Positions 15,912 through 29,273 of a stretch of 64,000 bases of DNA are shown piece after piece. Positions within the stretch are counted from its first letter, which is position 1, and each line of letters opens with the position of its first letter. The notes below the pieces were generated by a model that was not told the DNA's origin, ran no database searches, and saw only the letters and a program-made list of their open reading frames with translations. This DNA is from Paraglaciecola hydrolytica (GTDB lineage Bacteria > Pseudomonadota > Gammaproteobacteria > Enterobacterales > Alteromonadaceae), in contig NZ_LSNE01000003.1 in NCBI RefSeq assembly GCF_001565895.1, forward strand, positions 850,380 to 914,379, written 5' to 3'. The translations under genes were made by a program, and so were the position numbers.

Positions 15912-16213
15912 TTACTTATAAATCTCAAGGGTGATTTTGTGAGATCCGGTTTAGTTTGGAAAAAATCCAGCCTGATCAAACTGCGTAAAAAACGATGTGA
16001 TTTAGTTTTCAAACTAATAAAAAATATCAGTTCCACTTGTCATAAACCCAAGCGCAAGCACTTACAGTCAGACTTACCGCTAAAAACGACGCTATCGAGC
16101 AACTGCCACCAAGGTATGTTGCTACATCTCAGATAGAATTGTCTGACGCTCACCAGCCATTTTACTTCTCCGGCTGAACTACTAGGCATTCTTTAAAACG
16201 CTAAATATTTGAA
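15912..16213. other. intergenic region between lexA and the TonB receptor promoter
   Basis: About 300 bp with no supported gene. One plus-strand frame is open to 16136 and encodes a very basic peptide in this part, but it has no start codon or ribosome-binding site of its own and is mostly antisense to lexA, so I do not call it. No repeat, attachment site or RNA fold was recognised. Confidence 0.4.
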
Positions 16214-16275
16214 TGTTGACATTCTGTAATGATATGTTAATTTAATTAAATAAACCGGTTTAGTAAATCGGTTTT
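16214..16275 (+). promoter_or_regulatory. promoter with LacI-type operator for the TonB receptor
   Basis: TTGACA at 16216-16221, a 16 bp spacer and TAATTT at 16238-16243 form a sigma70-like promoter. Seven bases later lies the 12 bp palindrome TAAACCGGTTTA (16251-16262), so the operator covers the expected start of transcription. A second, weaker copy, TAAATCGGTTTT (16264-16275), follows. The same elements with the same spacings precede the dehydratase gene at 21872-21925. The central CG and palindromic form are typical of LacI-family operators, and a LacI-family gene lies in this locus. The transcript would have a leader of about 190 nt. Confidence 0.8.
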
Positions 16276-16462
16276 GTTGCCTAGGATACGCAATCGGATT
16301 GGTAACTAAATAGAAGGCCAAAATTGGTATTTATAACGAATACACAGTGTTTATTCAGCTATAGAGACTACAAAGCGGTTGGCCCCACAGTTGAAACAAT
16401 TTATTTACAAGATCCCGAAACATAAACAATAAATCTGACACTACCAAGTGAGTGGAGACCCC

Positions 16463-19435
16463 ATGAAAACTAAACTTAATAAAGTAAGTTCTGTCCTGAA
16501 GAGTCGTAGAACAAATACTGTAATTTACAGTGCAGCCATAGTCGCGATGCTGACAGCTCCAATTATTTCGGCGCAAGAAGCTCAAGCTGATGGAGATATT
16601 GAAGTTATACAGGTAAGTGGAATACGTAGTGCGCTGACAAGTGCACTTTTAGAAAAGCGCGATTCAACTAACTTAGTAGAGATTATTCAAGCAGAAGATA
16701 TTGGTAAATTGCCTGACCAAAACCTTGCTGAGGTGTTAGAGAATGTAACAGGCGTGCAAATTACTCGTTCTGCAGGTGTGGGTACGGGCGTGCAGATCCG
16801 TGGTACTAACGCCAACCGCACGGAAATTAATGGTGTTTCTACTGTTGGGTCTGGAGCTGGTCGTAGCGGTATTAATTTTGAAGATGTTTCAGCTTCAATT
16901 ATTGCCGCTGTTGAAGTTACCAAAGCTTCTGAAGCAAAAACTATCGAAGGTTCGGTAGGTGGTACTATTAACTTACGTACTATTCGTCCTCTGCAATTAA
17001 GCGAAACCTTAGCGTCTGTCAGAGTACAGGGTGAATCCAGTAGTCTTTCAACTGACGGTGTTAAGCCTCGATTATCTGGCACCTACGGTGACAATTGGGA
17101 TACTGACAAAGGCAGATTTGGTGTTGTTTTCAGCGCTAGTTATGCAGAGCAAGACGTAACCGCTTTCCGTCCTCGTGTTGACCGCGATAACGTTGTTACC
17201 TCAGATGGCGGTACGCCCAACGCGCAAGATTTTGATTTTCTTGGAATACAATTTCTTAACCAAGATTACGATAACGATGAATATGAAACAGTGAATTTTG
17301 CTGGTTCATTAGAATGGGCGCCCAATTCCGAGTTGAAGTTTTATTTTGATGCCACTATCAATGATCAACAGCGTTATGCAGAAAGTTCATCAATCCAAGC
17401 TTCAGGCGTAAGTGATGTAATTGGTGTTGGCGTTCCTAGTGCCTTTGAAACTGTTAACTTTGGTATTTTAGATGGTTTGGATCTTGGTAGTATCCAAGCA
17501 GCAACTAAAGGCGTTATTCCTGTTGAAGTGGGTGGTGCCGATCCAAATTTGCGTGTTGCGGCCGATACCAGCTCGCGGGTAACCAAGAGCGAAATATTTA
17601 GATTGGGTGGCGAATGGCAAGGTGAAAATCTTAAAGTAGTCGTTGAAGCGTCATCGTCAAGTTCTAACTCGACTAACCCTCGAATTAACACCACGCTTAA
17701 CTTTATTAACCCCAATGCGGCAATTAATTCATCCAATGAAAACGGGACACCGTTCATTTATGATTTAACGGGTGGCTCATTAGCATTTGGCATCGCTTTT
17801 GGTGAAGCAAACGCGCCAACGGCTGCAGATATGATGGATCCAGCAAATTACATTTTACGTGACGTACAAACGGCGCGAGATCGCACTGAAAACACTGAAG
17901 AGGCCTTGCGTACTGATTTTACTTATAGCTTAGATTGGTCTGCGTTAACTAGTGTCGACTTTGGTTTGCGTTATAGTAAATCAACAAGTATGACGGATCA
18001 GATCCGTGCTAACGTTGGTTTAAGAACTTATGCAGACAGCCCTAGAGGTGACTTATTCACTGAGCTTCTTACTGCAGGCCCAGATAACTTTGGCGACGCA
18101 GATGGTCGAGAGTTATTTGTTAAAGATTTCCTGATGATAAATCCTGATATGGTTACTGCCGACCAAGATAATGTGTTACGTATTCTAAATGATGCCGTTA
18201 CTGCACATGGTGGATCAACTCCTATTACTGCACCTACGTCAGAAGTTAGCGCATTTTTTGATATCGAAGAAACGACTAGCGCTCTTTATGCGCAAGCAAA
18301 TTTTGCTACCGATTATATACGCGGTAACTTTGGTGTTCGTTATCTAAAGACCGAAGTGGCTTCAACAGGTAATTCAATCACTACAGATGTAAATGGCAAC
18401 CCTACAGTGTCACAAGTAACAACAGTGGGTGATTACGACTTTTTACTACCTAGGATCAACATTGTTGCTGATGTAACAGACGATATCGTAGTGCGTGCCG
18501 GTTGGGGCAAAGATATTCGTCGTCCTGACTTTGACGACCTTTCAACTTCAGTTACCTATAGCACTAGTCCTAACCCACCTGTTTCAGTTGGTAACCCAAA
18601 TTTAGTGCCTGAAGAAGTTACCTCATTTGACCTGACGGCTGAGTGGTATTTCACGCAAGCAAGTGTATTAAGCATTGGATATTTCCATAAAACACGTAGC
18701 GACCTATTTGCTGGGCAGCAAGTAGACCCCTATCAAGATCCAGTGACTGGCTTCCGTGATACGGTTGGGCCGGTTTGTGAGCAAGGTGGTATTTGGAACC
18801 CTATTGCTGACATAAACGTATTTGGTCCTGTTGGTGTGGGCGTTTGTGTACCTTGGTCAACGACGATCAATGACACAGGTGAAACCACACAAGAAGGGCT
18901 TGAAATGGCAGTCCAATTTGACCTATCTAGTTTTGAAGATGACTTAGGCTGGGCATCTGGTTTTGGTGTTTTAGCCAACTATACGATCCAGAAGTTTGAT
19001 GGTGGTGAAGCAGTTGATAATGCCGCAAGTCGTCCTAATGAAATATTTGCAGCCTCTACAGGTATTGAGGGGATTGAAGTTTCCGCTCTACATGGTTTGC
19101 CCGATCTTTCTGAAAATGCTTATAACTTTACCTTGTACTACGAGAAGTTCGGACTTTCAGCCAGAATGCGTTATACATGGCGTGAAGCTCACCGCTCAGA
19201 AGATTTTGGCAGTACATCTAGTTACCCCTGGGGATTCATGGTTGTACAAGAAGACAGAGGACAGCTTAATGCCAGCATTAGTTATGATGTGACTGAGCAA
19301 TTAAATATTGGACTTGAAGGCGTCAACTTAACTGAGTCTGAAGTATCACAATCATGTGTTAACGGTGGGGCTTTATTATGTTTCCAAGGTCTTACCGACC
19401 GTCGAGTTACACTTGGTGCTAGCTATCGCTGGTAA
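16463..19435 (+). CDS. TonB-dependent receptor, probable oligosaccharide transporter
   Basis: 990 residues. A signal peptide spans about 1-38 (MLTAPIISAQ-EAQA). The plug domain contains IEVIQVSGIRSAL, the TonB box region, then DIGKLPDQNLAEVLENVTGVQITR (about 74-97) and VEVTKASEAKTIEGSVGGTINLRTIRP, both typical of the long carbohydrate-type receptors of Alteromonadales and Xanthomonadales. The barrel ends in the aromatic LGASYRW needed for outer-membrane insertion. I chose ATG 16463 because a GTGGAGA ribosome-binding site lies just upstream. The operator upstream, shared with the catabolic operon, links its ligand to the sugar-acid pathway rather than to iron. Substrate unknown. Confidence 0.93.
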   Translation: MKTKLNKVSSVLKSRRTNTVIYSAAIVAMLTAPIISAQEAQADGDIEVIQVSGIRSALTSALLEKRDSTNLVEIIQAEDIGKLPDQNLAEVLENVTGVQITRSAGVGTGVQIRGTNANRTEINGVSTVGSGAGRSGINFEDVSASIIAAVEVTKASEAKTIEGSVGGTINLRTIRPLQLSETLASVRVQGESSSLSTDGVKPRLSGTYGDNWDTDKGRFGVVFSASYAEQDVTAFRPRVDRDNVVTSDGGTPNAQDFDFLGIQFLNQDYDNDEYETVNFAGSLEWAPNSELKFYFDATINDQQRYAESSSIQASGVSDVIGVGVPSAFETVNFGILDGLDLGSIQAATKGVIPVEVGGADPNLRVAADTSSRVTKSEIFRLGGEWQGENLKVVVEASSSSSNSTNPRINTTLNFINPNAAINSSNENGTPFIYDLTGGSLAFGIAFGEANAPTAADMMDPANYILRDVQTARDRTENTEEALRTDFTYSLDWSALTSVDFGLRYSKSTSMTDQIRANVGLRTYADSPRGDLFTELLTAGPDNFGDADGRELFVKDFLMINPDMVTADQDNVLRILNDAVTAHGGSTPITAPTSEVSAFFDIEETTSALYAQANFATDYIRGNFGVRYLKTEVASTGNSITTDVNGNPTVSQVTTVGDYDFLLPRINIVADVTDDIVVRAGWGKDIRRPDFDDLSTSVTYSTSPNPPVSVGNPNLVPEEVTSFDLTAEWYFTQASVLSIGYFHKTRSDLFAGQQVDPYQDPVTGFRDTVGPVCEQGGIWNPIADINVFGPVGVGVCVPWSTTINDTGETTQEGLEMAVQFDLSSFEDDLGWASGFGVLANYTIQKFDGGEAVDNAASRPNEIFAASTGIEGIEVSALHGLPDLSENAYNFTLYYEKFGLSARMRYTWREAHRSEDFGSTSSYPWGFMVVQEDRGQLNASISYDVTEQLNIGLEGVNLTESEVSQSCVNGGALLCFQGLTDRRVTLGASYRW

Positions 19436-19480
19436 AATGTTAACTGAATATATCTAACCAATTGATATACCGATAAAAAT

Positions 19481-19508
19481 GTCGGGTCATATGAAAATAT
19501 GCCCCGAC
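19481..19508 (+). terminator. hairpin downstream of the TonB receptor
   Basis: GTCGGGTCATAT (19481-19492) pairs with ATATGCCCCGAC (19497-19508), a 12 bp stem with one mismatch and a GAAA tetraloop, 45 bp after the receptor stop. It lacks a clear T-run, so it may stabilise the 3' end or only partly terminate, leaving some read-through into the leucine-rich-repeat gene. Confidence 0.5.
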
Positions 19509-19627
19509 TCATATTGGACATATTGTGGTGTTTAAATTCAACATGATGCCGTCAAATAAATTGATATGTGACTAAGCGCGTTACATTCCATACACCTCGA
19601 ATACCGCATACCCAGAGAGCATAGAAT

Positions 19628-20608
19628 ATGAAGATCAGTCGAATTATATTGAATACAATCGCTTTGTTTGCATTCACGTTTTCAGTCCAGTCGAAAACAC
19701 CTTATACCCTTACTGCTAATGATGTAAAGGTAGTCAATGGGATAATTACTTCCTCGACTCTTACCAACGTTAGTGGGGATAATTATCAAGCCGATATTGT
19801 TATCCCCGAGATGCTTGACGGCCAAGTAATAAAAGCGATTGGGCAGCATGCTTTTCAAAATAAGGGCCTAAGCAGTGTGGATTTGCCCGCTAGGCTTACG
19901 TCTATTGGAGATAAGGCTTTTCAGAATAACCGCCTAACTAGAGTCGATTTACCTGCTGGGCTGACATCTATTGGCGATGCTGCTTTTGAGTTCAATACCT
20001 TAAGTAGAGTAGATTTGCCTACTGGCCTTACGACTATCAGTAATAGTGCTTTTGCAACTAACAGCATAAGCCATGTGACTTGGCCTGCAGGACTTACGTC
20101 AGTTCAAAGTAGCGCATTTCGAGATAACAGCCTAATCGTTGTGGATTTGCCGGCTGGGGTTAAGTCAATTGGGGATTTTGCGTTTCAGAATAACCGCATA
20201 ACCACTTTGACCTTGCCTGCAGGGATCACGACCATTGAGGATAGTGCTTTTAATGTTAACTTCTTAATCAGTGTGGATTTGCCTGCTGGGCTTACGACCA
20301 TTGAGGATAGTGCGTTTCGAGACAACCGCCTCACCAGTGTGGACTTACCTGCTGGGCTTAAGTCCATTGGCCATAAAGCGTTTCTTGCTAACCGCTTAAG
20401 CTATGTTGATTTGCCTGATGGACTTACCTTTATTGGGGAAGATACATTTAAAATTAATAGCGATTTTAAAAGCTTTGTTTTACCAAAGGGCTCTACTGTT
20501 GGCAAGTCGCTAAAATGGCAAGCAAGCGATGGAGCTGTTTTAGATGCTCAACATGTTGTTTTACCTGCAAATTTTGCTCTTAGTTATAAAGCTATTATTA
20601 AAGATTAG
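19628..20608 (+). CDS. secreted BspA-like leucine-rich-repeat protein
   Basis: 326 residues with a signal peptide (about 1-22, ending VQS-KT). Residues about 70-290 are ten tandem repeats of 22 residues with the pattern SIGDxAFxxNxLxxVDLPAGLT, the BspA/Treponema-type LRR (LRR_5). The last 35 residues are not repetitive. Such domains make curved surfaces for binding proteins or glycans, and BspA proteins are surface adhesins in oral and intestinal bacteria. No anchor, sorting signal or enzyme domain is seen. It lies 192 bp after the TonB receptor on the same strand and may share its transcript. Whether it binds the receptor's substrate is inference. Confidence 0.85.
   Translation: MKISRIILNTIALFAFTFSVQSKTPYTLTANDVKVVNGIITSSTLTNVSGDNYQADIVIPEMLDGQVIKAIGQHAFQNKGLSSVDLPARLTSIGDKAFQNNRLTRVDLPAGLTSIGDAAFEFNTLSRVDLPTGLTTISNSAFATNSISHVTWPAGLTSVQSSAFRDNSLIVVDLPAGVKSIGDFAFQNNRITTLTLPAGITTIEDSAFNVNFLISVDLPAGLTTIEDSAFRDNRLTSVDLPAGLKSIGHKAFLANRLSYVDLPDGLTFIGEDTFKINSDFKSFVLPKGSTVGKSLKWQASDGAVLDAQHVVLPANFALSYKAIIKD
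19835..20498 (+). repeat. ten in-frame 66 bp repeats in the LRR gene
   Basis: The leucine-rich repeats are also similar at DNA level: GTGGATTTGCCTGCTGGG-like blocks recur every 66 bp, and segments such as ACCATTGAGGATAGTGC occur twice almost identically. This suggests growth by internal duplication, and copy number may vary between strains. Confidence 0.8.
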
Positions 20609-20648
20609 GGCAAACTAAAAATTACTTAAAAGCCAGTTGATCTCAAAA

Positions 20649-20675
20649 TTTTTGCCGACCTAAAGTCGGCAAAAA
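20649..20675. terminator. hairpin between convergent LRR and lacI genes
   Basis: TTTTTGCCGAC (20649-20659) pairs perfectly with GTCGGCAAAAA (20665-20675) around a 5-base loop. An 11 bp stem between convergent genes is a likely bidirectional terminator or transcript end, though the U-tract is inside the stem on both strands. Confidence 0.6.
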
Positions 20676-20770
20676 AACTGCTGTACTTATTACTTTGTTT
20701 GTTGGCTCACAATAGCGACATAGAAAAACGTGTTTAATCGTTTTAACTTAATCAGCCTAGTTATATTTTA

Positions 20771-20782
20771 TAAACCGATTTA
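20771..20782. promoter_or_regulatory. operator-like site near the 3' end of the lacI-family gene
   Basis: TAAACCGATTTA differs in one base from the TAAACCGGTTTA operators at 16251 and 21909. It lies 48 bp beyond the repressor's stop codon and 1.1 kb from the dehydratase operator. It could be an auxiliary operator for looping or for the LRR side; no promoter pair is evident next to it. Confidence 0.45.
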
Positions 20783-20829
20783 GTTCCCTGCTAAATTTAT
20801 AATGTATATAACTCGCTTTGTTGCTGAGA

Positions 20830-21834
20830 CTATATTTTTTTACATGATTGCCTTGTCACCAAAGAGCATGAAATCATTATTTTTTGCGCAGGTTTATTAA
20901 CATCATTAATGCTACCGAGTAATATTTTAGCGGCTTCTAGGCCAATGATATAAGGCTCTTGTTTAATGACTGTGATAGGGACTTTAAAAAACTCTGCCAT
21001 AGGCAGATCATCAAAACCTATTAACGAAACATCATCAGGTATTGATATGTGCTCTTGGTTTAAGGCCGTTAAAAGATCGGTCGTTATTGCTAAATGCTGG
21101 GTGAAAAAGGCGCTGGGAGCCGCAGACTGCATGATGTGTTGAATGGATTGTTGGAATCCTGTTTCACGTTGCCAATATTGAATTAAGGTTGGCTCAAGTG
21201 GAATGTCATATTTACTTAAGGCGTCGGCATAACCTTGATAACGTTCGTTTCTGGATTTCACTTTTTTAAAGTCTTGTGACATAAAACAGATGCGTTTATG
21301 GCCAAGTTTAATGAGGTATTCAGTGGCATCAAAAGCCGCCTGTTTATAGTCTGACAAGATGATATTTTTTTCACTACCATCGTGTTCCAACTGAAACTGC
21401 ACTATGGGCATGCCTTTTTTCACGTACTCGGCGATGAGCTTAGTATTTTTACCTGAAGATGCGATGATGATGCCGTCGACCCGCAGTTGATATAAGGCCT
21501 CCAGCGACTTTGCTTCAATGGCAGAGTCAAAATCGGTATTGTAGATTAAGGCGTTATAATCATTTTGTTTACACCAATCATCAACCCCACGAATAGCCTT
21601 ACTGGTATAAAAACCTGTGATATCCCTAACGATGACACCTATGGTTTTAGTTTTAGTCGCCTTTAGGTTTCTGGCAATGGGATTAGGCACATAATCCAAT
21701 TCACTCACTGCCGCTCTAATACGCTCTTGAGTATCCTTCGACATAAACTCAAAACGACCATTAAGGTATTGGGATGCGGTGCTTTTAGAGACGCCAGCAA
21801 GTAGAGCAACATCAATTAATTTTACTTTGGCCAT
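20830..21834 (-). CDS. LacI family transcriptional repressor
   Basis: 334 residues. The N-terminal helix-turn-helix and hinge helix are clear: KLIDVALLAGVSKSTASQYL (about 4-23) and YVPNPIARNLKATKTKTIGVI. The rest is a periplasmic-binding-protein-like effector domain of normal length. The gene is divergent from the dehydratase operon with 122 bp between the start codons, and that gap contains the perfect palindrome ACTAAACCGGTTTAGT. The same operator precedes the TonB receptor. I infer that this protein represses both units until a sugar or sugar-acid inducer binds. The inducer cannot be read from the sequence. Confidence 0.92.
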   Translation of the reverse strand: MAKVKLIDVALLAGVSKSTASQYLNGRFEFMSKDTQERIRAAVSELDYVPNPIARNLKATKTKTIGVIVRDITGFYTSKAIRGVDDWCKQNDYNALIYNTDFDSAIEAKSLEALYQLRVDGIIIASSGKNTKLIAEYVKKGMPIVQFQLEHDGSEKNIILSDYKQAAFDATEYLIKLGHKRICFMSQDFKKVKSRNERYQGYADALSKYDIPLEPTLIQYWQRETGFQQSIQHIMQSAAPSAFFTQHLAITTDLLTALNQEHISIPDDVSLIGFDDLPMAEFFKVPITVIKQEPYIIGLEAAKILLGSINDVNKPAQKIMISCSLVTRQSCKKI

Positions 21835-21871
21835 GGGTATTTATTATCTGTGGACTAATTTTTTGGTGAGA

Positions 21872-21925
21872 TGTTGACATATTGCAATATTATGATAATT
21901 TGTTCAACTAAACCGGTTTAGTAAC
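21872..21925 (+). promoter_or_regulatory. promoter with LacI-type operator for the dehydratase operon
   Basis: TTGACA at 21874-21879, 16 bp, TAATTT at 21896-21901, 7 bp, then TAAACCGGTTTA at 21909-21920, embedded in the 16 bp perfect palindrome ACTAAACCGGTTTAGT (21907-21922). Both hexamers, the spacings and the operator core are identical to those upstream of the TonB receptor, exactly 5658 bp away, while the spacer bases differ. Confidence 0.85.
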
Positions 21926-21956
21926 TTTTAAAACAACTACAAAGAGAGGCTATAAG

Positions 21957-23174
21957 TTGAAAATTACCGAAGTTAAAGTATTTGTTTGTAGCCCTGGCAG
22001 AAACTTTGTCACCGTAAAAATTTTTACTGATGCAGGGCTGTATGGCGTAGGTGATGCCACCCTTAATGGTCGAGAAATGGCCGTTGTAGCTTATTTGCAA
22101 GAGCATGTAGCTCCCTGCTTGATTGGGCGAAATGCCCATGACATTGAAGATATCTGGCAGTATTTATACAAAGGCGTTTATTGGCGTAAAGGGCCGGTCA
22201 ATATGGCAGCCATCGCAGCGATAGACATGGCACTTTGGGATATCAAAGGTAAAGCCGCGGGTTTACCGGTTTACCAATTACTGGGTGGAAAAAGCAGAAA
22301 AGGCGTGACCTTGTATGCCCACGCGAGTGGCGAAACCATAGAAGACACTTTGGATAAAGCTGAACAGCATATCAAACAAGGCTTTAAAGCCGTACGTTTG
22401 CAGTGTGCTGTGCCAGGTTTGAATGTCACTTACGGCGTGCTTGGCGATAAAGCGGACTATTTTGAGTTGCAAGGCAGTCGACCTTTACCTCCAGAAGAAG
22501 AATGGTGCACGCAAAAGTATTTCAATATGATTGTTGAGCTATTTCAGCAAGCGCGAGCTCGCTTAGGTAACAACGTTCATTTACTACACGATGTGCATAG
22601 CCGTTTGACGCCTATCGAGTCAGCTAGATTGGGCAAATTATTAGAGCCCTTTGGTTTATTCTTTTTAGAAGACGCCTCCATGGCTGAAAATCAAGATAAT
22701 TATAAGGTGATTAGACAACACACCACTGTCCCTCTGGCGATAGGTGAAACCTATAATACGATTTGGGATTGTAAAGATCTGATCCAAAATCAGTTAATTG
22801 ATTATATCCGCGTTGCAGCTACCCATGCTGGTGGCATTACCGCATTAAGACGCATTGCTGATTTTGCCAGTATTTATAACGTAAAAATCGCCCCCCACGG
22901 TGCGCCTGACCTTTCACCCATTTGTTTTGCTGCCCATATGCATTTGAATATTTGGGCGCCTAACTTTGGTATTCAAGAATTTGTTGGTTTTGGGAATGCC
23001 CACTCAGCTCGGATTTTTAAACACGGTTTCGAAGTTAAAGATGGCATGGCCTATCTTAACGATGCTCCGGGTTTAGGCATTGAGTTTGATGAAGAAGCGG
23101 CTCAAGAATACCCCTATAAACGTTCTTACCTTCCGGTCAGCCGTTTGGAAGACGGAACGGTATGGAACTGGTAA
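21957..23174 (+). CDS. enolase-superfamily sugar-acid dehydratase, ManD/RspA group
   Basis: 405 residues, colinear with Novosphingobium ManD and E. coli RspA from PGRNFVTVKI to the C-terminal RLEDGTVWNW. ManD dehydrates D-mannonate to 2-keto-3-deoxygluconate. Catalytic positions are conserved: Arg147 and Tyr159, metal ligands Asp212, Glu238 and Glu264, His214 in HDVHSR, and His314. Near the last strand it reads PHGAPDLSP where ManD has HGPTDLSP, a region that, as I recall, separates efficient mannonate dehydratases from gluconate-acting or weak members. The exact substrate is therefore open. The start is TTG at 21957, with AGAGAGG eight bases upstream. First gene of the operator-controlled operon. 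Confidence 0.85.
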   Translation: MKITEVKVFVCSPGRNFVTVKIFTDAGLYGVGDATLNGREMAVVAYLQEHVAPCLIGRNAHDIEDIWQYLYKGVYWRKGPVNMAAIAAIDMALWDIKGKAAGLPVYQLLGGKSRKGVTLYAHASGETIEDTLDKAEQHIKQGFKAVRLQCAVPGLNVTYGVLGDKADYFELQGSRPLPPEEEWCTQKYFNMIVELFQQARARLGNNVHLLHDVHSRLTPIESARLGKLLEPFGLFFLEDASMAENQDNYKVIRQHTTVPLAIGETYNTIWDCKDLIQNQLIDYIRVAATHAGGITALRRIADFASIYNVKIAPHGAPDLSPICFAAHMHLNIWAPNFGIQEFVGFGNAHSARIFKHGFEVKDGMAYLNDAPGLGIEFDEEAAQEYPYKRSYLPVSRLEDGTVWNW

Positions 23175-23245
23175 TTCATCTATTGTGAATTTAATCGTTC
23201 TTAGCTTGAAATGATAATTTGAGATTATAAGTCGAGATAAATAAC

Positions 23246-24388
23246 ATGAGTAAAAATATACGAGTATTGATACAGGGAACCGGCTTTGCCGGACAAGGAC
23301 ATGCACAAGCTTTTAGGTTCGCAGGTGCTGAAGTTGTCGGCATAGTTGGCCGTACACCAAAAGTAGTACAACAAGTTGCCTCAGACATGAATATTCCTTA
23401 TGCAGGCACCGACTGGCAACAAGCCCTTATTGACTGTAAACCTGATGTGGTTTCGATTGCCACTCCGGGCGGCGCCCATGAAGAAGCGATTCAGCAAGCC
23501 ATAGAATTTGGTTGCCATGTATTCAGTGACAAACCCCTTACCACCTGTGGTGAATCAGCCAAAAAACTACATGACTTAGCCCAAGCAAAAAAAGTGAAAA
23601 CTGCCTTTGCTGCTAGTTTCAGATACATGCCCGATGTTATTCATGCTAAACGTTTAGTCGAAGCAGGTGTTATTGGCGAGCCCTTAGAAGTTGAGTGTAT
23701 TTCGCACTTTAACTTAGAGCGCAGTATTCCCTTTGGCTGGTCACATCGCAAAGAAGATGGTGGTGGTCGTCTGAGCAATAATTTCACTCATAAGTTATCC
23801 ATTGTTACGTCAATCATAGGTGAAAAAATCCTATCTATTATGGGCGAAGTACGTGATGACTTAGGCAAGGCACCTATTGTTGAAGGTGTGCATAACTTCA
23901 AAAACCGTCGCGACTATATTCCTGATGACTTAAATGATCCCTCGCTTAAGTGGGGCGAATCTAATGTGGAGTGGTCGTATACCGTATTAGCCCAGTTAGA
24001 AAGCAAACTGGCGACTAAACCGGTGTCTGTGTTGTTTAAACACGGTGGTTTACACCCTCGTTTTAATGAAGACCATATCGTGATTTATGGCAGTAAAGGC
24101 GCGATCTACATCAAAGGGCACTATGCCAGTGGCCCCTTGTATGTATATGACGACAATAAGCAGTGGGTTGAAGTGGCCTTACCTGAGGATATTGTTAAAA
24201 ACATACCGGATGTTGAAGGTGATACGGAAAGAAATTGGCGCTACCTGATTAGAGAATTAGTCAAAGATATTAAAGGTGAGTCGGTGGCTCCTTATCAAAC
24301 CTTTAAAGAGGGAGCTCAATATCAACAACTTATTGATCTTATTCGCAAAAATGATAATTGGGTTGACGTTAGTCACCTGCAATATTAG
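23246..24388 (+). CDS. Gfo/Idh/MocA family oxidoreductase
   Basis: 380 residues. The Rossmann domain has GTGFAGQGHA (11-20) for NAD(P), the usual EKP motif appears as SDKPLTT with Lys96, and the C-terminal domain contains GGGRLSNNFTHKLSI, where the family has its catalytic His region. These enzymes oxidise or reduce hydroxyl groups of sugars, inositols or sugar acids. It lies 71 bp after the dehydratase and 8 bp before the symporter, so it probably acts on the same sugar, for example converting an incoming sugar or uronate to the aldonate that the dehydratase uses. No KDG kinase or aldolase gene is present here. Confidence 0.88.
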   Translation: MSKNIRVLIQGTGFAGQGHAQAFRFAGAEVVGIVGRTPKVVQQVASDMNIPYAGTDWQQALIDCKPDVVSIATPGGAHEEAIQQAIEFGCHVFSDKPLTTCGESAKKLHDLAQAKKVKTAFAASFRYMPDVIHAKRLVEAGVIGEPLEVECISHFNLERSIPFGWSHRKEDGGGRLSNNFTHKLSIVTSIIGEKILSIMGEVRDDLGKAPIVEGVHNFKNRRDYIPDDLNDPSLKWGESNVEWSYTVLAQLESKLATKPVSVLFKHGGLHPRFNEDHIVIYGSKGAIYIKGHYASGPLYVYDDNKQWVEVALPEDIVKNIPDVEGDTERNWRYLIRELVKDIKGESVAPYQTFKEGAQYQQLIDLIRKNDNWVDVSHLQY

Positions 24389-24396
24389 GTAAGCCC

Positions 24397-26160
24397 ATGT
24401 TATATGAATATTTAGTCATTGCAGGTTACTTTTTACTGATAGTTGGTATTGGTTTTGCGTTTAAAAATATGGCCAAAAACTCTACCAGTGATTACTTTCG
24501 TGGCGGCGGTCGAATGTTATGGTGGATGGTCGGATCGACTGCCTTTATGGCGCAGTTTTCGGCCTGGACCTTTACCGGTGCGGCAGGTAAAGCTTTCACC
24601 GATGGTTTTGCTATTAGCCTCGTCTTTTTTGCCAATACCTTTGCCTATTTTTGTGGTTGGGCTTATTTTTCCGCCCGTTTTCGCCAGATGCGGGTGGATA
24701 CACCCACCGAGGGTATTAAACGGCGTTTTGGTCATCAAAATGAGCAGTTTTTCTCTTGGGCCTTGATCGTATTTAGTTTTATTAATGCTGGTGTGTGGCT
24801 TAACGCCTTAGGTGTCTTTACCAGCGCCGTGTTTGATGCTGATATTACCCTAACCATCATTGCTACGGGTTTAACCGTGGTCTTTGTTTCTGTGCTTTCT
24901 GGTGCATGGGGTGTGGTTGCCTCTGACTTTGTCCAAACCTTAGTGGTCGCGGTTATCTCCATTGCCTGTGCCATAGTTGCCTTGTTTATGGTGGGCGGTC
25001 CGCTTGAGTTGGTGAACAATTTCCCAGTGGATTTTGTTATGGGTCCAGACATGAACTACGGAGTCATTTTAGTTGGCACTTTTGTATTCTTTTTAGCCAA
25101 GCAAATGATCACCATCATGAATTTACATGATTCATTTCGTTTTCTAAATGCGAAAGATTCTGTCAATGCACGTAAAGCATCTTTATTAGCTATGGGCTTG
25201 ATGGGCGTGGGCAGTATTGTGTGGTTTATTCCCCCTTGGGCTGCAGCCATATTATATCCAGACGCAGCTGCTGCTTACCCCGAATTAGGCAATAAAGCCG
25301 CTGACGCTGTGTATTTGGTATTTACCCGTAATGCCATGCCAGTGGGTACGGTTGGTTTACTCTTGGCAGGTTTGTTTGCCGCGACTATGTCTTCTATGGA
25401 TTCAGCGCTGAATAAAAATGCCGGTATCTTTGTTAGGAGTATCTATCAGCCCTTCCTTCTCAAGAAAAAATCCGAGGTCGATGATAAACATCTACTGAAG
25501 GTTAGTCGTTTCATCAGTTTTGTTAGTGGGATCTTAGTTATTGCCGTTGCCTTGTTTTTTAAGTCGCTGACCGAGCTCAGCCTATTTGAATTAATGATGA
25601 ATGTTTCAACCATGATCCAAGTGCCCTTACTTATCCCTCTTATCTTTGGTTTGTTTATCAAGCGTATCCCCCAGTGGGCCCCTTGGGTCACAGTGGGAGT
25701 CGGCCTCTTTGTTTCTTGGTTTTCGGTGAATATTTTGACGCCAGAACTGTTAGCTAATTGGCTAGGTCTAGCGCAGGAATTCACTCGTCGTGAAGCGGTA
25801 GACATCAACTTAATGATCACCATAGGTGCCCACTTAGTTTTCACCGCTGGATTTTTCTGTGCCACTACGTTTTTCTATAAAGAACAAGATGATCAACATA
25901 AACAAGAAACCGAGCGCTTTTTTGCCGATTTTGAAACGCCCTTTATCGCTGACGCCGAGCAAGATGATTACGACAGACAGCAGCGTGATAAATTAGGCTC
26001 TATGGTGATGTATATGGGTTATGGCGTACTGGCCATGATGTTAATTCCTAATCCAATGTGGGGAAGAATGGTGTTTGTACTCTGTGCGTTGACCATATTA
26101 CTGATGGGCTTTTTACTCAAAAGAAGTGCCAATACTAAAGATCTTAAAGCAAAACAATAA
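24397..26160 (+). CDS. sodium/solute symporter (SSS/SLC5 family)
   Basis: 587 residues with about 14 membrane segments. It shows the SSS layout: YFRGGGRMLWWMVGSTAFMAQFSAWTF in TM1-2, an AWGVVASDFVQTLVV segment, and LFAATMSSMDSALNKNAGIFVRS, the SSMDS element that binds sodium in this family. Members import sugars, amino acids or carboxylates with sodium. As the only inner-membrane transporter of this operon it should bring in the substrate that the TonB receptor delivers to the periplasm. The bases just after its stop (GGGC-TTAACC-GCCC) form a short hairpin before the lipoprotein gene. Confidence 0.9.
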   Translation: MLYEYLVIAGYFLLIVGIGFAFKNMAKNSTSDYFRGGGRMLWWMVGSTAFMAQFSAWTFTGAAGKAFTDGFAISLVFFANTFAYFCGWAYFSARFRQMRVDTPTEGIKRRFGHQNEQFFSWALIVFSFINAGVWLNALGVFTSAVFDADITLTIIATGLTVVFVSVLSGAWGVVASDFVQTLVVAVISIACAIVALFMVGGPLELVNNFPVDFVMGPDMNYGVILVGTFVFFLAKQMITIMNLHDSFRFLNAKDSVNARKASLLAMGLMGVGSIVWFIPPWAAAILYPDAAAAYPELGNKAADAVYLVFTRNAMPVGTVGLLLAGLFAATMSSMDSALNKNAGIFVRSIYQPFLLKKKSEVDDKHLLKVSRFISFVSGILVIAVALFFKSLTELSLFELMMNVSTMIQVPLLIPLIFGLFIKRIPQWAPWVTVGVGLFVSWFSVNILTPELLANWLGLAQEFTRREAVDINLMITIGAHLVFTAGFFCATTFFYKEQDDQHKQETERFFADFETPFIADAEQDDYDRQQRDKLGSMVMYMGYGVLAMMLIPNPMWGRMVFVLCALTILLMGFLLKRSANTKDLKAKQ

Positions 26161-26206
26161 GGGCTTAACCGCCCTGTTTGTTTAAGTTTTAACAGGAGAC
26201 GAACAC

Positions 26207-27040
26207 ATGTTTACCAACATAAAACGCCCCTTGGTGGTACTAAGCCTTGTGCTGTGGATAGTGGGTTGTAATGCCCTAGATAACGACAAAAAAGTGAGCT
26301 TACGCCATGGTATTGATGAGTCAGCAGGTGGACTGCCTGCTTACATCGTAAGTATTGCCAACGCCACTTTTTATCTTGAAAAAGACGGTGGCGGTTTATC
26401 CAGTATGTTGGATGCAGATGGCATAGATTGGCTGGGTTTTAATGACAGCAAAGGCTCTGGCCATCAAGGTGAGTATCGTGGATTCCCTAATGCCATTCAT
26501 AAACAAGATGGTGACTACTTTCATGCCCTGAATGCTAGCACAGATAAATCAAGCTCAAAGGTTGAAATTGACTCACCCCAGCACGTGCGCATTGTTTTTA
26601 CCTCAGGCAATGGCAAATGGCAGGGGCAGTGGGACTTTTACCCACAGCGCTTAGATTTTACTATGTTACAAGTCAGCGAAGGCTATCAATACTGGGTGCA
26701 ATATGAAGGTGTACCCGGTGGGGAAATGGATGACAGTGACTTTTGGTATGCCTCGGCTGACAGCAAGTTACATGTTATCAATGAACCCTTCGAGGGCGAT
26801 TTACCTGCGCCTGAATGGTTTGCCTTTGGCGATATAAAAAGCTCGCGCATGTTATATCTGCTGCATCATGAAGATGATGAACATCCAGATGATTATGTTA
26901 GTCGCCCTCACATGACAGTGTTAGGTTTTGGTCGTAGCGAAAAAAACAAATTTCTGAGCACGCCTCAGACGTTCTCAATTGGATTTGTTGAGTCTTCTGA
27001 CTATCAAGAGGTAGAGCAGTTTATTAAAAAACTACTTTAA
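26207..27040 (+). CDS. uncharacterised lipoprotein, beta-rich, sugar-locus associated
   Basis: 277 residues. LWIVGC gives a lipobox with Cys22, preceded by a K/R-rich start. The mature part is rich in Trp, Gly and Asp: GGGLSSMLDADGIDWLGFND, GEYRGFPNAIHKQDGDYFH, WVQYEGVPGGEMDDSDFWYASAD, LPAPEWFAFGD and LYLLHHEDDEHPDDYVSRPHMTVLGFGR. I recall similar uncharacterised secreted proteins in Planctomycetes and Bacteroidetes, always near sugar catabolism genes, but know no function. The conserved acidic and His residues (HHEDDEHPDDY) could bind metal or be catalytic. It follows the symporter by 46 bp and ends the operon. A role as periplasmic glycan-modifying or sugar-binding protein is inference. Confidence 0.75.
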   Translation: MFTNIKRPLVVLSLVLWIVGCNALDNDKKVSLRHGIDESAGGLPAYIVSIANATFYLEKDGGGLSSMLDADGIDWLGFNDSKGSGHQGEYRGFPNAIHKQDGDYFHALNASTDKSSSKVEIDSPQHVRIVFTSGNGKWQGQWDFYPQRLDFTMLQVSEGYQYWVQYEGVPGGEMDDSDFWYASADSKLHVINEPFEGDLPAPEWFAFGDIKSSRMLYLLHHEDDEHPDDYVSRPHMTVLGFGRSEKNKFLSTPQTFSIGFVESSDYQEVEQFIKKLL

Positions 27041-27186
27041 GCTACAAAATCCGCCGTACAGTGATTTCTCGTTTAAGGGGGCTTGGCAATTTACGATTTT
27101 TGCCAATCCACTAATCATTATTAAGACTTTAGTCGGACCATTCGCCTATGGTGCTAGACTGGCAAAAATCACAAAATAAGACAGCC

Positions 27187-29112
27187 ATGTTTAAATACCT
27201 CTACTTACTCTTGCTACTTTGCAGCCAAAACGTATTGGCTGAACTTCGACTACCTAAACTCATCAACGACCACATGGTATTGCAGCGCGATATTGAAGTG
27301 CCTATTTGGGGTTATGCCGATACGGGCGAAGCCGTTACCGTTAAGTTAGACGGTAAAATTGTCGGTAAGACTATTAGCAATAATGGCAAGTGGCGACTCA
27401 AACTAGCGCCACAATCTGCCAGCGGCCCTCATCAAATCAGCATAAGCGCGAGCAAGACTATAGTCGTAAAGGATGTCTATTTTGGTGATGTATGGCTTGC
27501 CTCAGGCCAATCCAACATGGAACTACAAATGTACCGAGTGGCAGAAGACTTTCCTGCCGATCTAAAGGACGCTGATTACCCCTTAATTCGTTATTTTATG
27601 GTGCCACAAAAATACAATTTCCAAGCACCGCAAGACGATCTGGTCAGTGGACATTGGGAGTCTGTATCCTCACAAAATATTAGCCGTACACCTGCTGTTT
27701 CGTTTTATTTTGCTAAACAATTGTTTAAACATAATGGTGTGGCCATAGGCATTATCAACAATGCGTTAGGCGGTTCGCCCATTGAGTCTTGGTTAAGTGC
27801 AGAGGTCTTACAGACTTTTCCTGAAGCCTTAGCTGAAGCCAAACAATTCAGTAATGAAGAGTATGTAGAATCGGTGATTGCGGCCGACAAGGCGAAAAAC
27901 GCCAAGTGGTACGGCGATATAAATAACAATGACTTGGGTTTAAATGCCGATATGCCATGGTATTCAACTAACCTTGATGACAGTGGTTGGGATAGTTTTA
28001 CTCTTCCAGGTAAACGCCCTGTGGCTGAGGGTGAAAGCTTTAACGGTGTGTGGTGGTTGCGTAAAACGGTCAAGCTCAGTGCTGAACAAGCGGCACAGGC
28101 GCGTATTATTCGTCTGGGAAACATCGTTGATGCCGACGAAGTGTATATAAACGGCACAAAAGTGGGCAATACCACTTATCAATATCCACCAAGACGTTAT
28201 ACCTTGCCGGAGGGCTTGCTTAAACAAGGCGACAACCAGATCACCGTGCGTGTCACAGCCAACAATGGACGCAGTAGTTTTGTCGCAGAAAAACCCTATT
28301 GGTTAGGCACTGATGAACACCATGTTTCACTGGCTGGAGAGTGGAAGGCCAAAACCGGTACTTTAGCTCCTCCATTAGCGGGAGATACCTTTGTTCGATG
28401 GAAAGCCGGTGGTTTATATAACGGCCTAACCGCACCATTAACCACTTATCCCATTAAGGGGGTGATTTGGTATCAAGGTGAATCTAATGCCGGCAGATGG
28501 CAGGATTACCATGCTAAATTCAGTGCCATGATCCAAGATTGGCGAGCAAAGTGGGGGCAAGGCGACTTCCCCTTTATCTTCGCCCAGCTAACTAACTTTA
28601 TGGAGGCTAAACCTCAGCCAAGTGATAGTGATTGGGCAAAGTTAAGGCAAGCACAAACTCAAACACTGACCGAGCCCAATACCGCTATGGCGGTGGCAAT
28701 AGATATTGGCGAGTGGAATGATATTCATCCCACTAATAAAAAAACCTTAGGCCAACGTATGGCTCTGGCTGCACGGGCTCTCGCTTTAAAAGAAAATGTC
28801 GTTTTTCAAGGCCCGCAAATTGATGGGGTCACAGTCGAAAAAAACCAACTTCTCTTAAGTTTCAAACATATCGCCGATGGCTTGGTATTAAAAAACCTTA
28901 ATGATCATAGTTTTGCCATAGCTGGTGCAGATGGCACATTTCAATGGGCTGAAGTCAAACTAGTAGATAACCAAATCATGCTGTCACATCCAGATATTAA
29001 GCTACCAACTAAGGTGCGTTACGCTTGGGCCGACAACCCCGATGCGGCTTTGTATAACAGTGCAGGTTTGCCGGCCGTGCCATTTTCAGTCAGTTTGGAT
29101 CCCAAACCTTAA
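27187..29112 (+). CDS. sialate O-acetylesterase-like SGNH carbohydrate esterase
   Basis: 641 residues, exported (signal peptide about 1-18, ending VLA-EL). The esterase motifs are intact: FGDVWLASGQSNMELQM with the nucleophilic Ser, NNALGGSPIESWL for the oxyanion hole, GVIWYQGESNAGRW, and the D-x-H block NDIHPTNKKTLG. Between the first and third blocks, about residues 255-375 form a jelly-roll resembling a beta-galactosidase sugar-binding domain (WWLRKTVKLSAEQ, DEVYINGTKVGNT). This two-part layout occurs in sialate/xylan acetylesterases of polysaccharide loci. It probably removes acetyl groups from glycan fragments in the periplasm. ATG 27187 was preferred over GTG/ATG 27148 because of the signal peptide. 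It has its own 146 bp upstream gap, so may be transcribed separately. Confidence 0.85.
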   Translation: MFKYLYLLLLLCSQNVLAELRLPKLINDHMVLQRDIEVPIWGYADTGEAVTVKLDGKIVGKTISNNGKWRLKLAPQSASGPHQISISASKTIVVKDVYFGDVWLASGQSNMELQMYRVAEDFPADLKDADYPLIRYFMVPQKYNFQAPQDDLVSGHWESVSSQNISRTPAVSFYFAKQLFKHNGVAIGIINNALGGSPIESWLSAEVLQTFPEALAEAKQFSNEEYVESVIAADKAKNAKWYGDINNNDLGLNADMPWYSTNLDDSGWDSFTLPGKRPVAEGESFNGVWWLRKTVKLSAEQAAQARIIRLGNIVDADEVYINGTKVGNTTYQYPPRRYTLPEGLLKQGDNQITVRVTANNGRSSFVAEKPYWLGTDEHHVSLAGEWKAKTGTLAPPLAGDTFVRWKAGGLYNGLTAPLTTYPIKGVIWYQGESNAGRWQDYHAKFSAMIQDWRAKWGQGDFPFIFAQLTNFMEAKPQPSDSDWAKLRQAQTQTLTEPNTAMAVAIDIGEWNDIHPTNKKTLGQRMALAARALALKENVVFQGPQIDGVTVEKNQLLLSFKHIADGLVLKNLNDHSFAIAGADGTFQWAEVKLVDNQIMLSHPDIKLPTKVRYAWADNPDAALYNSAGLPAVPFSVSLDPKP

Positions 29113-29139
29113 TTACGAAAAATATTTTGGCTGTCTTAA

Positions 29140-29200
29140 TTGCCCTAATTTGCTTAGTGTTTGAACGTTCGATCTTTAAACACTGAGCGAAGCAGGGCAA
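29140..29200. repeat. long imperfect inverted repeat upstream of plsB
   Basis: Arms of 23 nt (29140-29162 and 29178-29200) pair at 19 positions, two more as G-U, around a 15-base loop. The ends TTGCCCT/AGGGCAA and the inner AGTGTTT/AAACACT are perfect. It lies 28 bp after the esterase stop and 73 bp before plsB, so it may end the esterase transcript or act in the plsB leader. Confidence 0.65.
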
Positions 29201-29273
29201 AAACCAATCTGCCGTGGTAATATTCGCTTTTTGACAAAGCGTCTTTTCAGCGCAAAAGCGAGGCTTGGTTTAC

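Follow-up and report, generated by a model that had tools for sequence, protein, structure and literature searches.

Which sugar acid enters the pathway of a gene pair of Paraglaciecola hydrolytica, in which a dehydratase of the ManD type is followed by an oxidoreductase of the Gfo/Idh/MocA family? The pair lies in a stretch of 64,000 nucleotides, referred to here as the window. The dehydratase reading frame (plus strand, 21957–23174) starts with TTG and encodes 405 amino acids of a ManD-like protein from a separate clade. On the same strand follow the Gfo/Idh/MocA oxidoreductase (23246–24388, 380 amino acids), an SSF sodium:solute symporter (24397–26160) and a lipoprotein (26207–27040), and the LacI-family regulator of the module is encoded on the minus strand (20830–21834). 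In our preferred reading, to which a probability of about one half is given, this LacI-controlled module imports a saturated uronic acid derived from alginate and routes it to KDG in two steps. Downstream of the module, a SASA-type esterase that carries a GH2-like sugar-binding domain (27148–29112, plus strand) has relatives in none of the 26 other module loci and is doubtful as a member; an LRR protein was dropped, as it has no counterpart in these loci either. The lipoprotein matched no Pfam or NCBIfam family and had no solved relative by sequence, with a single PDB row at chance level (E 0.25). Its structure model (pLDDT 66) predicts a galactose-mutarotase-like supersandwich fold, the top match (Z 15.2 over 219 residues at 3.3 Å) being nearly equalled by lyase domains (14.6). 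A scan of positions 16000–29400 yielded promoter-like sites below the level of shuffled sequences and 20 terminator-like sites versus 12.7.

With the ManD subgroup of the enolase superfamily (NF043051; 2qjj, 3thu, 4e4f) the window dehydratase shares its length and the metal and acid-base residues. It scores 676.1 bits with the D-mannonate dehydratase model NF043051 at a cut-off of 550, is 51–61% identical to the 90 other ManDs compared, and contains Arg147, Tyr159, Asp212, His214, Glu238, Glu264 and His314, all of which a sequence-only reading of the locus had named. That reading had also contrasted the segments HDVHSR (211–216) and HGAPDLSP (314–321) with HDGHHR and HGPTDLSP. Both segments are there and do differ from these, but HDGHHR is the segment of 2qjj, which we take to be the ManD of Novosphingobium, and not the norm of the family, and HGPTDLSP was seen only in 4k1w among eight printed ManD alignments. 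The segment of 2qjj itself is HGATDLSP, 4k1w looking otherwise identical to it in the same print, and 4e4f and 4il2 both carry HGPSDLSP. The third position of HDxHxR is methionine in 43, valine in 35, isoleucine in eight, alanine in three and threonine in one of the 90 other ManDs. Residue 316 is alanine in 40 of them and proline in 50, so that Ala316 is ordinary for a ManD. Earlier work on ManD specificity concerned the Ala/Pro position and promiscuity.

A phylogeny of ManDs with genome context, which had been suggested along with the sequence-only reading, placed the window dehydratase in a distinct monophyletic clade of 26 sequences from three lineages (support 100/99). Serine 215 is found in 25 of the 26 members where all 90 other ManDs have histidine, proline 317 in 26 of 26 versus 2 of 90, and phenylalanine 236 in 90% or more of the members versus tryptophan in 90 of 90. 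Ala312-Pro313, Ala287 and several residues in an altered 162–179 loop mark the clade as well. Histidine 215 of the HHR triplet and tryptophan 236, both missing from the window enzyme, are common ManD traits and not proven requirements. The clade residues do not establish the altered specificity that had been read from them. The idea that another sugar enters here, by a route that may be undescribed, fared better, being supported by the separate clade, the frequent Gfo partner, the own regulator and the alginate context.

The clade dehydratase occurs in Gammaproteobacteria, Alphaproteobacteria and Bacteroidota, and its carriers are mostly marine. Leaving out the window, the Gfo gene accompanies it in 22 of 25 clade loci and is absent from the stretches of L053, L054 and L067. 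When locus L146 is added to these 25, the resulting tally of 26 loci contains the Gfo gene in 23, an SSF symporter of at least 50% identity in 17, a LacI regulator in 17 and the lipoprotein in 12. One locus of the Rhodobacterales (L065) lacks the SSF symporter and encodes an ABC transporter together with additional redox genes. In three relatives of the module genes for KDG kinase and/or aldolase are located within 10 kb, with Eda in L048, L049 and L053 and a KdgK that passes its curated cut-off in two of these, L049 and L053, which encode cupins as well.

A link of the module to alginate is well supported. PL7 or PL6 lyases were found in all 12 genomes of the order which have the Gfo gene versus 41 of 283 which lack it (p 4e-10, uncorrected for kinship; PF14592 covers chondroitinase B too, and G154 was counted on one weaker match to it). 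Pectate lyases, taken as a control, occurred in 2 of the 12 versus 18 of the 283 (p 0.19), and genomes with other ManDs showed no such link, with PL7 or PL6 in 5 of 39. When counted by the clade dehydratase, 11 of 13 genomes of the order have PL7 or PL6; G140 and G178 carry the clade dehydratase and neither of these lyases, but a PL17-type lyase in the stretch examined. When restricted to the family to which the window belongs, the link to lyases was 4 of 4 versus 9 of 20 (p 0.07). Of 27 module loci, counting the window and L146, seven had PL7, PL17 or PL6 genes inside the examined stretch, compared with none of 72 loci that carry other ManDs (p 6e-5). The remaining 20 module loci, the window among them, had no alginate lyase in that stretch.

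Sequence matches to an operator connect the module with an outer membrane receptor. The perfect palindrome ACTAAACCGGTTTAGT lies between lacI and the dehydratase gene (21907–21922), and palindromes of this type occurred in 16 of 18 stretches examined including the window, three of them as looser variants. Two overlapping LacI-type copies (16249–16277, with one and two mismatches to ACTAAAYCGRTTTAGT) precede a TonB-dependent receptor (TIGR01782; 16448–19435, plus strand), so that shared LacI control of receptor and module may be proposed. Among 14 genomes searched the two closest relatives of this receptor adjoin alginate lyases, one in a PL6-PL17-MFS-KdgK-like cluster (L181) and the other in a cluster with PL17 (L182). 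A third relative (G214, 69%) adjoins an enolase, with no recognised alginate genes beside it. Operator control of the alginate lyases of the own genome was dropped as an idea, since no site with up to two mismatches was present at their loci on contigs 1, 7 and 11. Outside the window this genome has four operator sites with two mismatches.

We infer the substrate, the redox direction, the cofactor and the dehydration step of the module as follows. The TonB receptor would carry an alginate-derived sugar across the outer membrane and the SSF symporter would import the uronate through the inner membrane. Next, the Gfo/Idh/MocA enzyme would act as a D-mannuronate and/or L-guluronate reductase, reducing the C1 aldehyde with NAD(P)H to D-mannonate and/or D-gluconate, from which the dehydratase would make KDG. 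Fischer bookkeeping over five common uronates leaves D-mannuronate and L-guluronate as the sole ones that lead to D-mannonate or D-gluconate and hence to KDG. With its NAD-binding and C-terminal domains the Gfo protein exceeds the Pfam cut-offs for PF01408 (76.8 bits), PF22725 (42.9) and PF02894 (35.0) and reaches no NCBIfam equivalog cut-off, the top model being levoglucosan dehydrogenase with 78 bits at a cut-off of 650. The motif GIVGRT after its second strand is invariant in 14 Gfo sequences and contains no acidic residue, a feature that would suit NADPH as the cofactor. Some ManD-type enzymes tolerate both D-mannonate and D-gluconate, and these epimers would merge into KDG because the dehydration erases the sole centre at which they differ. 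That a single Gfo reductase takes both uronates and a single clade dehydratase unites both aldonates is a more tentative proposal, considered rather less likely than not. The main objection to the uronate route is that lyases would leave just one saturated residue per original alginate chain, so that the saturated uronate should be scarce. The absence of lyases from the stretches of most module loci and the other reactions of the nearest solved Gfo relatives count against the route too.

The sequence-only reading had argued from the absence of UxuB, a fructuronate reductase, and of KDG kinase. This absence holds locally, with no KDG kinase among the eight window proteins scanned, but members of both families are encoded on other contigs, which weakens the argument. 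The window belongs to contig 3; UxaC and Mannitol_dh_C matches come from contigs 5 and 7, and contigs 1, 5 and 7 encode kinases that are KdgK-like or otherwise of the PfkB type. These genes would allow an ordinary glucuronate pathway in scattered form, in which UxaC and UxuB from elsewhere feed D-mannonate to the window dehydratase. This was the first idea and was downgraded on two grounds: a second ManD of the genome (57% identical, of the canonical group) already sits in a glucuronoxylan-type locus with GH115, GH43 and GH9, which makes such a role of the window enzyme less likely, and a search of 14 module genomes found no UxaC in 5, of which four are 99–100% complete. As the Gfo gene would in addition be left without a role, the scattered pathway is now considered very improbable. 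A non-phosphorylative oxidation of aldoses, in which C1 oxidation by the Gfo enzyme turns a neutral aldose, D-mannose or D-glucose, into its lactone while KDG is made from the aldonate by the dehydratase, would at least involve the same aldonates for the ManD. The closest solved relatives of the Gfo enzyme, about 20% identical and catalysing other reactions (levoglucosan, L-glucose/inositol), oxidise sugars, one of them L-glucose. Aldose oxidation is nevertheless unlikely, leaving the alginate association and the alginate-type TonB receptor unexplained, and the eight window proteins scanned included no member of a recognised lactonase family.

The Gfo enzyme might instead be an unrelated replacement of DEH reductase acting on the unsaturated alginate monomer, leaving the dehydratase to act on some other acid sugar as a sideline. 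At L054 a close relative of the DEH reductase A1-R' indeed occupies the place that follows the dehydratase and SSF symporter genes. The KDG formed in this way would need no dehydratase, yet the two genes are paired in 23 of 26 loci, and a 3-hydroxyisobutyrate-dehydrogenase-like protein adjoining PL17 in the own genome could be its DEH reductase; we judge this replacement to be just as unlikely as aldose oxidation. The fold neighbours of the Gfo enzyme (levoglucosan dehydrogenase, DgpA, NAD-dependent glycosidases) suggest a glycoside 3-dehydrogenase or NAD-dependent glycosidase which would act upstream of the dehydratase on a glycoside derived from alginate or algae. Such enzymes often have AP_endonuc_2 barrels as partners, and these were noted at least in L065, in L070 and, by clustering, in L071, but not among the eight window proteins scanned, and oxidation at C3 yields no aldonate for the dehydratase, so that this role too appears improbable.

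Among the polymers of brown algae alginate is a major one, and accounts of how bacteria break it down normally run via the unsaturated monomer DEH. The proposed reduction of saturated uronates shares the polymer and the end product KDG with this DEH pathway (DehR-KdgK-KdgA), which in contrast acts on the unsaturated monomer and needs no dehydratase. With the classical UxaC-UxuB-UxuA/ManD-KdgK-Eda pathway it would share the presumed step from D-mannonate to KDG and the exit via KdgK and Eda, whereas the window has no isomerase or fructuronate reductase and the uronate would be reduced directly. The reaction proposed for the Gfo enzyme equals that of mannuronate reductase, EC 1.1.1.131. Farmer and Eagon reportedly described this activity in 1969, and to our knowledge no gene has been assigned to it. 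The fungal reductive galacturonate pathway uses a reductase of a family other than Gfo/Idh/MocA. As outlined in a uronate review (PMC6353982), its enzymes GaaA and L-galactonate dehydratase likewise first reduce the uronate and then dehydrate the aldonate, with another uronate and another stereochemistry. For alginate, the section of that review on these uronates (PMC6353982, section 9) gives the DEH route only. According to PMC6011931 a DEH reductase oxidises D-gluconate and D-mannonate at C6; together with the relative of DEH reductase A1-R' in L054 this counts in favour of the uronate route. PMC13274419 places UxuA, UxuB and UxaC in the cytoplasmic uronate metabolism of a bacterium grown on alginate, so that finding a mannonate dehydratase close to alginate use is no novelty by itself, and PMC11036162 mentions an arabinogalactan locus of Maribacter in which a mannonate dehydratase occurs with a Gfo/Idh/MocA protein that is left unexplained. 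In the open-licence full-text literature no description of this module or of a mannuronate reductase gene was found, which is weak evidence.

If the uronate route is true, bacteria of three lineages would have in common a dedicated route for saturated uronates. The probable orphan activity mannuronate reductase would gain a gene and the ManD subclade a physiological substrate, and, should one clade dehydratase take both aldonates, there would be a physiological reason for the tolerance of ManD-type enzymes towards both D-mannonate and D-gluconate.

The dehydratase gene (21957–23174) and the Gfo/Idh/MocA oxidoreductase gene (Gfo gene, 23246–24388) form the pair which the sequence-only reading had described, and the seven catalytic ManD residues it had assigned to the dehydratase (Arg147, Tyr159, Asp212, His214, Glu238, Glu264, and His314) were all found under these numbers. 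The protein scores 676 bits with the ManD equivalog profile, the cut-off of which is 550. An SSF symporter gene (24397–26160) starts 8 bases past the end of the Gfo gene and is followed by genes for a lipoprotein (26207–27040), which matched no Pfam or NCBIfam family, and a SASA-type esterase (27148–29112). Upstream of the dehydratase a LacI regulator is encoded divergently (20830–21834), and a BspA-type leucine-rich repeat (LRR_5) protein (19628–20608) lies between lacI and a TonB-dependent receptor on the upstream side. A separate enolase-superfamily stretch (L005, G000:C9:55663-56871), 28% identical to the dehydratase and with two stops within the match, is perhaps a pseudogene.

Relatives were sought in 295 genomes of the order and in a named genome collection, the latter yielding at least 80 loci. 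At least 25 sequences are 66–86% identical to the window dehydratase, while the 90 other ManDs compared reach 51–61%. The phylogeny of the ManD subgroup with genome context, which had been suggested from the sequence alone, placed 26 of 59 sequences in a single separate clade (support 100/99). Among the matches listed its members come from Aliiglaciecola, Pseudoalteromonas, Colwellia, Photobacterium, Vibrio, Phaeobacter, Paracoccus, Formosa, and Maribacter, mostly marine genera, as well as from two Saprospiraceae MAGs and one Pseudomonadales MAG. The dehydratases of loci L054 (family f18) and L053 (family f21) group inside with Maribacter (100/98), a placement that points to transfer.

The clade is marked by Ser215 (25/26 members; His in 90/90 other ManDs), Phe236 (Trp in 90/90), Pro317 (26/26 versus 2/90), Ala312-Pro313, Ala287, and several residues in the 162–179 loop. 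Both Pro317 exceptions belong to a distant branch with HGAPSHSP (L146:8431-12003 and L147:9407-10633), which has a glycine aligned with Tyr159. The segment HGAPDLSP, previously considered unusual, is so with respect to Pro317 but not to Ala316, as the other ManDs have alanine (40/90) or proline (50/90) there. Alanine at 316 is typical of high-efficiency D-mannonate dehydratases and proline of low-efficiency or D-gluconate ones; 4k1w and 2qjj show both variants in apparently one protein.

The surrounding genes were compared across 26 loci, L146 and the 25 clade loci other than the window's. Among the matches listed, those with at least 50% identity cover the Gfo gene in 23 loci, LacI and SSF in 17 each, the lipoprotein in 12, and the TonB receptor in one; the esterase and the leucine-rich repeat gene had none, these absences being soft since the stretches span 9 to 21 kb. 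The Gfo gene occurs in 12 of the 295 genomes of the order, 11 of them with a clade dehydratase. In the twelfth (G011) it adjoins the distant ManD of L146, together with LacI and the operator, so two dehydratase lineages partner the same oxidoreductase. In L054 (4260-11026), a short-chain reductase, with DEH reductase A1-R' as best solved relative (E 8e-118; DEH is the unsaturated alginate monomer of the usual route), replaces the Gfo gene after dehydratase and SSF in what looks like one operon; a PL17-type lyase is close by. The Rhodobacterales modules (L065, families by profile scan; L066, mostly by eye) add an ABC transporter, a 2-hydroxyacid-dehydrogenase-like gene, a short-chain dehydrogenase, an aldo-keto reductase, and an AP_endonuc_2 barrel, which a simple two-step scheme leaves without explanation.

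Of 18 stretches examined, window included, 16 carry the palindrome ACTAAAYCGRTTTAGT or a variant of it next to the dehydratase or lacI; the variants in L046, L051, and L052 are looser, and the stretches taken at L045 and L067 have none. The sole mismatch-free copy in the P. hydrolytica genome is at 21907–21922, and tandem copies with one and two mismatches (16249–16277) precede the TonB receptor. Two-mismatch copies occur at 20769 and at four sites outside the window; at this tolerance a reversed control pattern gave 32 hits in the genome versus 8, so that only clusters and near-perfect copies count. At a tolerance of three mismatches the window holds six sites (chance mean 0.97; 0/100 shuffles reached six). 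Of the 14 module genomes, 11 carry matches to the strict pattern (none in G121, G214, and G140), 16 palindromes in all versus six for its reversed control, and as 15 of the 16 lie on the module's own contig stretch, the predicted regulon looks local, comprising the module and the TonB receptor.

Several findings connect the module with alginate. Within the fetched stretches, alginate lyases accompany 7 of 27 module loci (window and L146 counted) and 0 of 72 other-ManD loci (p 6e-5). Genome-wide, PL7 occurs in 11/12 genomes with the Gfo gene versus 37/283 others, PL6 (a profile covering chondroitinase B too) in 9/12 versus 31/283, and either in 12/12 versus 41/283 (p 4e-10), the p values for the lyase link being overstated by mutual relatedness of the genomes; within the window's family alone the counts are 4/4 versus 9/20 (p 0.07). 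Pectate lyase, taken as control, gave 2/12 versus 18/283 (p 0.19), and genomes with other ManDs are not enriched (5/39). Counted by clade dehydratase the figure is 11/13, because both PL7 and PL6 are missing from G140 and G178; each of these genomes has a PL17-type lyase in its fetched stretch. Gene orders are PL17, PL17, cupin, KdgK, Eda, LacI, dehydratase, Gfo, PL7 in L049; PL17, PL17, cupin, KdgK, Eda, SSF, LacI, dehydratase, SSF in L053; and Eda, UxuB-like gene, SSF, UxuA, LacI, dehydratase, Gfo, PL7 in L048, where Eda is about 7 kb from lacI. The KdgK matches of L049 and L053 exceed the curated cut-off. P. hydrolytica itself has two PL7 genes (contig 11), PL6 with an MFS transporter and KdgK-like kinase (contig 1), and PL17 (contig 7). 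Five relatives of the TonB receptor besides itself were found in the 14 module genomes at E 1e-150 or better: one at 72% (G121) adjoins PL6, PL17, an MFS transporter, and a KdgK-like kinase; one at 70% (contig 7 of P. hydrolytica) PL17 and a 3-hydroxyisobutyrate-dehydrogenase-like protein; one at 69% (G214) an enolase; one at 59% (contig 20 of P. hydrolytica) had no alginate gene among two neighbours scanned; the fifth shares 47% identity.

The ordinary glucuronate route was considered for the window dehydratase and judged unlikely. A second ManD of the genome, 57% identical, adjoins GH115, GH43, and GH9, a glucuronoxylan-type context, and UxaC was not found in 5 of 14 module genomes (G121, G194, G083, and G239, 99–100% complete; G139, 82%), where it therefore cannot supply the dehydratase; a different isomerase might do so there. 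Fructuronate reductase and KDG kinase, earlier called absent, have related genes elsewhere in the genome: contig 5 carries altronate dehydratase, UxaC, a PfkB kinase, and a mannitol-dehydrogenase-family gene nearest to fructuronate reductase yet under that profile's cut-off, and contig 1 the KdgK-like kinase. Mannitol-dehydrogenase-family genes occur in all 14 module genomes, and part of them may be mannitol enzymes. One such gene on contig 7 (L041:8445-12717), together with a PfkB kinase and a protein of 596 aa that matched no Pfam family, perhaps serves brown-algal mannitol use. In G239, where UxaC was not found, the alginate-lyase-bearing stretch L048 (2311-8144) encodes a protein weakly similar to mannose-6-phosphate isomerase 1qwr (E 2e-10) and without a Pfam match, adjoining the UxuB-like reductase, SSF transporter, and UxuA; it might be a D-mannuronate isomerase providing a second route to D-mannonate.

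The dehydratase requires a 2,3-dihydroxy acid, and the ManD subgroup includes enzymes for D-mannonate and for D-gluconate. By stereochemical bookkeeping, reduction of the C1 aldehyde converts D-mannuronate to D-mannonate, L-guluronate to D-gluconate, D-glucuronate to L-gulonate, D-galacturonate to L-galactonate, and L-iduronate to L-idonate; only the first two products match the C4-C5 configuration of KDG. Substrate and redox direction of the Gfo step are our inference: the enzyme would reduce D-mannuronate to D-mannonate, L-guluronate to D-gluconate, or both, and the dehydratase would turn one or both products into KDG. The structure model of the Gfo enzyme (pLDDT 83) resembles levoglucosan dehydrogenase, 1,5-anhydrofructose reductase, and L-glucose dehydrogenase (Z 33–34, 18–23% identity), neighbours which settle the predicted fold only and leave the reaction aside. 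The lipoprotein model (pLDDT 66) is closest to mutarotases (Z 15.2), rhamnogalacturonan lyase domains following at 14.6; a mutarotase here would be in keeping with a free reducing sugar, and nothing beyond. PMC6011931 shows a DEH reductase running backwards from D-gluconate to L-guluronate and from D-mannonate to its uronate in a single redox step.

The module's parts are known families. Mannuronate reductase has an EC number, 1.1.1.131, and to our knowledge no gene; a literature text search for the number gave unrelated matches only. Section 9 of one review gives the DEH route alone for alginate monomers (PMC6353982). Other papers report a test of mannuronate oxidation by uronate dehydrogenases (PMC4476818) and, for a bacterium grown on alginate, list UxuA and UxuB with the uronate genes (PMC13274419). 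A further paper describes a Maribacter arabinogalactan locus that encodes a mannonate dehydratase as well as a Gfo/Idh/MocA protein for which no explanation is given (PMC11036162). The combination of dehydratase, Gfo gene, and module partners, in which both reactions are putative, was not found in the open-licence literature searched and may be new. Among the 53 genomes of the order that bear lyases, 12 have the Gfo gene, which is consistent with, if not proof of, a minor substrate: by their chemistry, lyases would give a single saturated unit per chain, from its original non-reducing end, and the proposed substrate would then be minor, unless hydrolysis or other organisms provide more.
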